Below, piece after piece: positions 4,944 through 6,238 of a DNA stretch of 35,002 bases. The stretch is from Gammaproteobacteria bacterium (GTDB lineage Bacteria > Pseudomonadota > Gammaproteobacteria > DRLM01). Position numbers and translations under genes: made by a program. The notes beneath the pieces were generated by a model. It saw only the letters and a list, made by a program, of their open reading frames with translations. It ran no database searches and was not told the origin of the DNA. The stretch covers positions 1 to 35,002 of the forward strand of contig DRLM01000075.1 of the NCBI GenBank assembly GCA_011375345.1, in the 5' to 3' direction. Within the stretch, counting starts at the first letter, position 1. Every line of letters begins with the position of its first letter.

Positions 4944-5447
4944 TCAATCAACGCGGACCTCAACACGCCGACTGCGTGCCCGCGCGCTCTTGGGTAATGT
5001 CACGGTGAGCACGCCCCGACGGTAGCGGGCCCGGGCCTGGCTGTCGTCCACTTCAACCGGCAGGGGCACTGCCCGCTGGAACCGGCCGTACGCCCGCTCC
5101 ATGGTGTAGAACTGATCATTGCGCCGCTCTCGGGAAAAATGTTTCTCACCGCTGACCACCAGCAGACCGTCCACCACCTGGATATCGAAATCCTCCGGCT
5201 CCATGCCCGGCACTTCCAGCTTGACAATGACATCCTGGTCCGTCGCACTCACATCCGCCGCCAGCACCGCCCACGGCGAGGCGTAACGTAACACTTGTTG
5301 CTCCGCCGACTCCAGCCCGCCTTCGGCCTGCTTGTGAGTAAAACGCGTCAACGCCTGCGCCGCCCGCTGCCGCAACTGATGCCAGGCATCCGACAACGAA
5401 GACCATGCCCGTTCGAGACCTTCCCTGACAGGTTGCAGATTCGCCAT
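4944..5447 (-). CDS. Small heat-shock protein, Hsp20/alpha-crystallin family (second of pair)
   Basis: A 167-residue protein with an N-terminal, helix-rich extension of about 57 residues and an alpha-crystallin domain from about residue 58 (WAVLAADVSATDQ) to the diagnostic RRGVLTVTLPK near the C-terminus. These proteins bind unfolding clients without ATP and pass them to DnaK/ClpB. It lacks a clear C-terminal IXI/V tail beyond VEVRVD, which may alter oligomer assembly. The gene has its own GGGAGG RBS and starts 26 nt after the stop of the first hsp20, so the two form an operon. The long N-terminal region differs strongly from that of the neighbour, which suggests mixed oligomers or distinct clients rather than a recent duplication. 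Confidence 0.92.
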   Translation of the reverse strand: MANLQPVREGLERAWSSLSDAWHQLRQRAAQALTRFTHKQAEGGLESAEQQVLRYASPWAVLAADVSATDQDVIVKLEVPGMEPEDFDIQVVDGLLVVSGEKHFSRERRNDQFYTMERAYGRFQRAVPLPVEVDDSQARARYRRGVLTVTLPKSARARSRRVEVRVD

Positions 5448-5473: not shown

Positions 5474-5905
5474 TCAGCTCTCCACCTTAATGCGCCGGGC
5501 CTGTGCCTGACGCCGCTTGGGGATGTTGATTTCCAATACACCGTTTTTCCCTTGGGCCGTAACACCCTCGGCATCCGCGGTATCCGGCAAGACAAAGCGG
5601 CGATAGAAACTGCCCATGGGGCGTTCCCGCCGTTTGAAGCCGTTCCCTGATTCCTCCCGGTTGCCGCGAATTGCAAGAACACCGTTTTCCATGGTGATCT
5701 CCACCTGGGACGGATCGACGCCGGGAATGTCCGCGCTGATGACAAAGGCTTCATCCTTTTCACGAATGTCCACCAGGGGCACCCAGTCACTGGTGACCGC
5801 AACGCCCTGGGCCCGGGCCTCCGGCTGGCGCGCGTCAAACAGGCGGTTGACTTCCTGTTGCAACTGCTCCATCAACGAAAAGGGGTCATAAGATGAATAA
5901 GCCAT
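5474..5905 (-). CDS. Small heat-shock protein, Hsp20/alpha-crystallin family (first of pair)
   Basis: A 143-residue Hsp20. A short N-terminal region (SSYDPFSLMEQLQQEVNRLF) typical of class A bacterial sHsps precedes an alpha-crystallin domain from about residue 41 (WVPLVDIREKDEAFV) through NGVLEINIPK, followed by a tail ending ARRIKVES. It is an ATP-independent holdase in the cytoplasm. The ATG at 5905 has a perfect AGGAGG RBS (5915-5920) with a 9-nt gap. Upstream lie a palindrome-rich leader and a sigma-32-like promoter (6149-6177), so heat induction is likely. It is co-transcribed with the second hsp20. Confidence 0.94.
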   Translation of the reverse strand: MAYSSYDPFSLMEQLQQEVNRLFDARQPEARAQGVAVTSDWVPLVDIREKDEAFVISADIPGVDPSQVEITMENGVLAIRGNREESGNGFKRRERPMGSFYRRFVLPDTADAEGVTAQGKNGVLEINIPKRRQAQARRIKVES

Positions 5906-5947
5906 GGTGTGTTGCCTCCTGAATTGCTCTGCTGCCCTATGAATACT

Positions 5948-6013
5948 CCACCGGCTAAAGCCGGTGGTTTCGGGTTACGGCTGGAAGCCGGATTGGTCGG
6001 CCATTCGGCCGAC
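5948..6013. repeat. Cluster of three palindromes, left part of an IS200/IS605- or REP-like element
   Basis: Three hairpins lie in a row. A perfect 9-bp stem with a 2-nt loop occupies 5948-5967 and contains the core CCGGCTAAAGCCGG. A 5-bp stem with a 3-nt loop occupies 5978-5990. A 7-bp stem with a 4-nt loop occupies 5996-6013. Such subterminal hairpins with a CCGGCTAAAGCCGG core resemble ends of IS200/IS605-family elements and REP sequences mobilised by RAYT transposases. No transposase gene is present, so this would be a non-autonomous copy or relic. The resemblance is from memory, not from a search. Confidence 0.5.
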
Positions 6014-6056
6014 TGAAAAAAACCACGAACTGCAACCAATGCGCAATCCGCGTGAA

Positions 6057-6125
6057 TCGGCATATAACTGCGAACCGGTGTTGCTTCGCAACAGCTCATA
6101 TGCCGGCTAAAGCCGGGGGATTTAC
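6057..6125. repeat. Nested palindromes, right part of the same element
   Basis: An outer pair of 8-bp arms (CGGCATAT and its complement) encloses an inner 6-bp stem with a 3-nt loop (TGTTGCTTCGCAACA). Immediately after comes a second copy, in the same orientation, of the CCGGCTAAAGCCGG core followed by GGGGATTT. Together with 5948-6013 it gives a roughly 180-bp unit bounded by direct copies of the same palindrome. The whole 5906-6262 gap contains no plausible gene. Confidence 0.5.
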
Positions 6126-6148
6126 AGATCCCCTATTTGTGACTTTAA

Positions 6149-6177
6149 ATTTGGGACCGCAGCGACAATTTCAAGGG
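6149..6177 (-). promoter_or_regulatory. Sigma-32 (RpoH)-like promoter of the hsp20 operon
   Basis: On the minus strand CCCTTGAA (6177-6170) is followed by a 13-nt spacer and TCCCAAAT (6156-6149). This matches the heat-shock promoter layout known from groE in E. coli (CTTGAA, 13 nt, CCCCATTT) in spacing and in 6 of 8 bases of the -10 box. It lies downstream of the pnp terminator and upstream of hsp20, and implies a leader of about 235 nt that includes the palindrome cluster. Confidence 0.6.
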
Positions 6178-6212: not shown

Positions 6213-6238
6213 AAAAAAAGGGGCCCCCGGCCCCCCTT
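6213..6238 (-). terminator. Rho-independent terminator of pnp
   Basis: Minus-strand reading gives a GC-rich hairpin made of GGGG and CCCC arms around CCGGG, followed directly by seven T residues. It begins about 25 nt after the pnp stop codon and should end the long rimP-to-pnp transcript before the hsp20 promoter. Confidence 0.8.

Follow-up and report, generated by a model that had tools for sequence, protein, structure and literature searches.

Full-length elements of the IS200 group (IS200/IS605, with a Y1/HuH TnpA) carry subterminal hairpins at both ends and insert 3' of a fixed target, a short conserved sequence that flanks the left end (PMC6006769). In Salmonella, IS200 contains a Rho-independent terminator by which incoming transcription is stopped, and transcripts that enter it seem to give rise to short RNAs (PMC2515195). 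Miniature elements (MITEs) derived from IS200/IS605, such as the PATEs of haloarchaea, consist of ends only, have no transposase and are present in multiple copies. MITEs of other types, NEMIS/Correia and ERIC, are transcribed within mRNAs, where their hairpins can affect processing or transcript level (PMC10969869, PMC2229807). The leaders of small heat-shock genes such as ibpA and hsp20 are the classic site of ROSE-type RNA thermometers (PMC3669281).

We analyzed a window of 35,002 nucleotides from a gammaproteobacterial draft genome (GCA_011375345.1, contig DRLM01000075.1), in which a palindrome-rich leader of approximately 237 nt separates the promoter of an hsp20 gene from its ATG. We consider it probable that an IS200/IS605-type MITE inserted behind the intact hsp20 promoter, and that it now makes up most of the leader, where it may attenuate expression. 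With full-length IS200-group elements it shares the subterminal hairpins of both ends and insertion 3' of a short target, but it is only 206 bp long and has no tnpA. It resembles the PATEs, but its subfamily is bacterial and has a distinct interior. A terminator-like hairpin is found in both the element and the Salmonella IS200; here the hairpin is internal to the subfamily and need not derive from the IS200 left end. As in NEMIS/Correia and ERIC, the MITE would be transcribed within an mRNA, but those elements are not IS200-type, and the described ERIC effect is exerted through 3' parts of mRNAs whereas the hsp20 element lies in a 5' leader. The ROSE-type thermometers likewise lie in structured 5' leaders of small heat-shock genes; the hsp20 element differs from them in that it neither masks the Shine-Dalgarno (SD) sequence nor matches Rfam. 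We found no published description of this element subfamily in the literature searched. The features of the locus are collected in Table 1.

Table 1. Features of the hsp20 leader region (all on the minus strand; positions are those of the window).
Feature	Position	Strand	Evidence
pnp intrinsic terminator, 5' of hsp20 promoter	6216..6238	-	terminator scan
Sigma-32-type (heat-shock) promoter	6149..6177	-	12/14 match; motif at orthologous place in 21/23 relatives
TTTAA, inferred target pentamer	6145..6149	-	TTTA(A/G) at left end of most of 23 sites
Probable non-autonomous IS200/IS605-type element (MITE), 206 bp, no transposase frame	5939..6144	-	near-identical copies, shared ends
Left-end hairpins GGGGATCTGTAAATCCCC and CCGGCTTTAGCCGG	6103..6134	-	folds of -8.4 and -7.8 kcal/mol; family-conserved
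Long internal hairpin of 206-bp subfamily	6058..6105	-	fold of -21.7 kcal/mol
Intrinsic-terminator-like hairpin, then GTTTTTTT	6016..6054	-	11 pairs and U tract; -13.0 kcal/mol
Right-end hairpins 6015-5995, 5991-5978, 5967-5948	5948..6015	-	as in full-length IS200-type elements
Native leader end, Shine-Dalgarno AGGAGG at 5920-5915	5906..5938	-	outside shared element
hsp20, first small heat-shock protein gene	5474..5905	-	PF00011, E 8.7e-24
Second hsp20 gene	4944..5447	-	PF00011, E 6.2e-21

The promoter consists of a -35 box CCCTTGAA (CTTGAAA; 6177-6170, minus strand) and a -10 box TCCCAAAT (CCCAAAT; 6156-6149, minus strand) separated by a 13-nt spacer, and conforms to the arrangement CTTGAAA, 13–14 nt, CCCCATNT 5' of a heat-shock gene. 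Its score of 12/14 against the Escherichia coli sigma-32 consensus was reached by only five alignments on both strands of the whole window, three of which are this same promoter with shifted spacers, so that by sequence it is essentially the best sigma-32 site of the window. The first-pass annotation had placed a sigma-32-like promoter just after the pnp terminator, and comparison with relatives supports this assignment. A search of 95 genomes yielded hsp20 relatives in 45. We inspected 23 of their upstream regions, and in 21 of these a CTTGAAA-like motif is followed, after 13–14 nt, by a CCCCATNT-like -10 box; in the two exceptions, L053 and L054, the best alignments were weak, scoring just 10/14 with the boxes 15 nt apart. 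The distance from the end of the -10 box to the ATG is 32–81 nt in the 21 relatives and 243 nt in the window, where the ATG of the first hsp20 gene lies at 5905 (minus strand) and the extra length is due to the 206 inserted bp. From the position of the shared motif close to the ATG in the relatives, we conclude that the promoter is old and that the palindromes have been added. The second hsp20 gene is probably part of the same operon.

The three genomes of the same family (G003–G005), in which the first hsp20 is 67–71% identical, all have the promoter and an hsp20 leader without the element. The pnp-hsp20 neighborhood is kept in G003 and G005, hsp20 adjoining pnp in these two; in G005, pnp and its terminator are followed by TCTTGAAA, the -10 box and a leader of approximately 60 nt, and G004 likewise has a short hsp20 leader. 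These genomes belong to other genera and therefore do not provide a strict empty site. A separate observation concerns hsp20 in many other gammaproteobacteria. In loci L039–L041, L043–L050, L053, L056 and L063, hsp20 and a ribonucleotide reductase-like gene, the product of which begins with ...DIWDKKYRLKxKDG...DDTYKRVARALA, are arranged head to head. The two genes are separated by one or two CACAANATNTTGTG palindromes, which we take to resemble NrdR boxes. The window contains neither the ribonucleotide reductase-like gene nor the CACAANATNTTGTG palindromes.

The first-pass annotation had proposed that a repeat element became part of the hsp20 leader. The comparison with relatives supports an insertion, and we were able to go further by setting exact borders at 6144 and 5939 and identifying the element, from its sequence, as an IS200-type miniature element. 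At the left border TTTAA is followed by AGTCAC, the first bases of the element, which ends in TATTCAT; the expected halves of the empty site at hsp20 are TCCCAAATTTAA and AGGGCAGCAGAGC. The borders are fixed by copies whose flanks are unrelated to one another. One copy (L099/L068, a single locus of a gammaproteobacterial MAG) is 99.0% identical over 207 nt, and two are found in Sedimenticola sp. HyVt-446, of which L098 is 98.6% identical and L097 is 94% identical over 180 nt and has lost the right end. These three copies with the same interior came from a scan of the genome collection with a 20-base core and from a sample of 369 gammaproteobacterial genomes; a fourth match to the core (L096) was discarded as a chance match within a coding gene. 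The near-identity of copies in other gammaproteobacteria points to recent spread. We note that L097, from which the right-end hairpin and the 3' border have been deleted naturally, lies just 5' of a gene start and is probably no longer transposable. Plasmids yielded one distant match only (Nitrobacter hamburgensis, with no annotated gene beneath it), and no matches to the element were found among phages and viral contigs.

The ends of the element assign it to a family. Among 23 sites whose flanks were collected by BLAST, most have TTTA(A/G) directly next to the left end; farther out the bases are random. This fits the IS200/IS605 elements, in which a short target flanks the left end. We found no target duplication, the right flanks being different and no TTTAA following the right end. 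Subterminal hairpins are present at both ends of the 206-bp element, within which no open frame for a transposase was found. Genome G106 contains full-length elements (L084, L093) with both ends and a gene for a protein of approximately 140 amino acids, and the same kind of protein is encoded between matching ends in G215 (L067) and G315 (L066), where the contigs start at the left end. The L067 protein matches NCBIfam transpos_IS200 at 146.7 bits (cut-off 55) and also Pfam Y1_Tnp. Both ends of the 206-bp element are thus homologous to the ends of elements with an IS200 TnpA, and on this basis we class it as non-autonomous and of the IS200 kind. The right end was found in 22 other genomes among the 369 gammaproteobacterial genomes sampled. 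In G095, one family copy (L094) appears to be interrupted near its right end by an insert of approximately 150 bp. The element's own genome has nine further family sites, in which a right end of approximately 75 nt is 77–89% identical and most of which also have the left end; their middle is different and unrelated, with CCCTCTCC...GGGAGAGGG repeats. Most of these nine diverged members (L002–L010) also contain a second palindromic repeat, CCCTCTCCCCTTGAGGGGAGAGGG...CCCTCTCCCGGTCTTGGGAGAGGG, in the middle.

An intact cognate transposase was not found in the element's own genome, and since this is a draft of 162 contigs the gene may simply be missing from the assembly. What the genome does contain is a distant IS200 TnpA fragment at a contig end (41% identity over 56 amino acids) and a RAYT-like protein, the latter raising the alternative that the element is a REP/BIME-type palindrome spread by RAYT rather than an IS200-type MITE. 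The RAYT-like Y1 protein (L034, C62:24507-24839) has an open frame of up to 298 amino acids, with an RNA methyltransferase-like gene on one side and a thrS-like gene on the other, and is flanked by AAAGGGGTCAGAGCCC / AAAGGGCTCTGACCCC repeats. The right hairpin of the element also resembles short palindromic repeats, matching the psRNA14 stem at 20 bits, where the gathering score is 60. Against this alternative, the repeated unit is 206 bp long with distinct left and right ends, true IS200 TnpA genes of other genomes are bounded by these ends, and no repeats of this kind are located beside the RAYT gene; we therefore regard a REP/BIME origin as highly improbable. An origin from IscB/HEARO was also considered, the right border of the element being similar to HEARO insertion sites, and was rejected: there was no HEARO covariance match and no RRXRR protein, a weak absence given that the control was also unmatched.

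The leader is highly structured. It folds better than all of 200 dinucleotide shuffles (z = -3.9), and where the first-pass annotation had counted at least five stem-loops we find at least six hairpins that fold independently (6134-6116, 6105-6058, 6054-6024, 6015-5995, 5991-5978 and 5967-5948). The two palindromes with the same core that it had reported are exactly placed: CCGGCTAAAGCCGG, as read on the plus strand, is found at 5951-5964 and 6103-6116 with zero mismatches, a near-match count equalled in none of 100 shuffles. At 6116-6103 the palindrome CCGGCTTTAGCCGG can form in place of part of the hairpins at 6134-6116 and 6105-6058. The final 33 nt before the hsp20 ATG, including the Shine-Dalgarno sequence, are native and not part of the element, and by sequence the leader would measure about 31 nt without it.

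These features suggest the following history. An element that had kept both ends and lost its transposase gene would have inserted immediately 3' of the TTTAA at the edge of the -10 box. Because the first T of TTTAA doubles as the final base of this box, the -35 box, spacer and -10 box were left untouched, and for the same reason transcription should start inside the element, with a predicted start near 6142 among its first bases. Transcription upon heat shock would cross every hairpin of the element on its way to the original Shine-Dalgarno sequence, and the hairpin and U7 in mid-element would end part of the transcripts, yielding a short leader RNA. The output of hsp20 would thereby be lowered while heat induction was kept and ribosome access was little changed.

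The effect of the element on hsp20 is a matter on which several readings compete. The hairpin and U7 at 6052-6016 form a G+C-rich stem-loop followed, after a single G, by seven T, with a predicted energy of -13.0 kcal/mol compared with -13.6 for the pnp terminator. In a 400-base region where 0.5 terminator-like matches were expected, four were found, namely this hairpin and three versions of the pnp terminator. The sister copies L099 and L098 retain the hairpin with U7–U8, and the truncated L097 with U5. Taken with the Salmonella IS200 precedent, this makes partial termination with readthrough, and hence partial attenuation of hsp20, the most likely single effect and the one we prefer, although our confidence in it falls somewhat short of even. 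A partial terminator had been among the roles first suggested for the leader; the structure itself is present and the role plausible, termination being our inference from it. The terminator may be weak, as only five of the 11 pairs are G-C, several are G-U, and one base precedes the U tract. These same G-U pairs, and the intact state of the promoter, the Shine-Dalgarno sequence and the 33 nt before the ATG, are compatible with a near-neutral insertion in which transcription reads through a leader that is merely longer and expression is set by the promoter alone. A hairpin plus U7 nevertheless has the form of a terminator, and stability is often altered by structured untranslated RNA such as these 237 nt; neutrality, a distinctly possible outcome, ranks close behind attenuation.

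The transcribed element might instead act mainly upon mRNA stability, its 5' structure blocking decay or serving as an RNase III substrate as in NEMIS and ERIC. The long hairpin at 6105-6058 (-21.7 kcal/mol) and the precedents for MITE RNA in mRNA processing (PMC10969869, PMC2229807) are in keeping with this, but the sequence singles out no cleavage site, and we consider such a principal effect unlikely. A more specific role proposed at first was that of an RNA thermometer, masking the hsp20 ribosome-binding site at low temperature, for which the high degree of structure and the small heat-shock gene would be a fitting context. Folding at 25–50°C did not reveal masking of the Shine-Dalgarno sequence at low temperature or its release at high temperature: with the element present, the mean unpaired probability of this site changed only from approximately 0.43 at 25°C to approximately 0.55 at 50°C. 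The element's hairpins leave AGGAGG uncovered, and the weak local pairing of this sequence persists when the element is lifted out, so that by this model the element does not gate the ribosome-binding site. Rfam searches at gathering and relaxed thresholds produced nothing convincing, with no ROSE or other thermometer family matching the leader, and the element itself is a mobile repeat that also occurs in unrelated surroundings. A thermometer is thus not supported by the modeling, and we judge it very unlikely. Temperature might act upon the terminator hairpin instead, whose predicted folding energy weakens from -16.3 kcal/mol at 25°C to -9.4 kcal/mol at 50°C. That the element is a working attenuator which weakens with heat, giving temperature-dependent readthrough behind a sigma-32 promoter, seems improbable; if true, a mobile repeat would have added a temperature-dependent readthrough switch to a heat-shock operon.

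If the effect of the element upon hsp20 is small, the locus would represent a harmless insertion only. By the insertion that we infer, mobile DNA would have been turned into the leader of a heat-shock mRNA. The locus would provide a clean natural example in which an IS200-type miniature element separates a stress gene from its promoter and leaves the promoter unharmed, and may offer a simple with/without comparison for how transposon hairpins tune stress genes.
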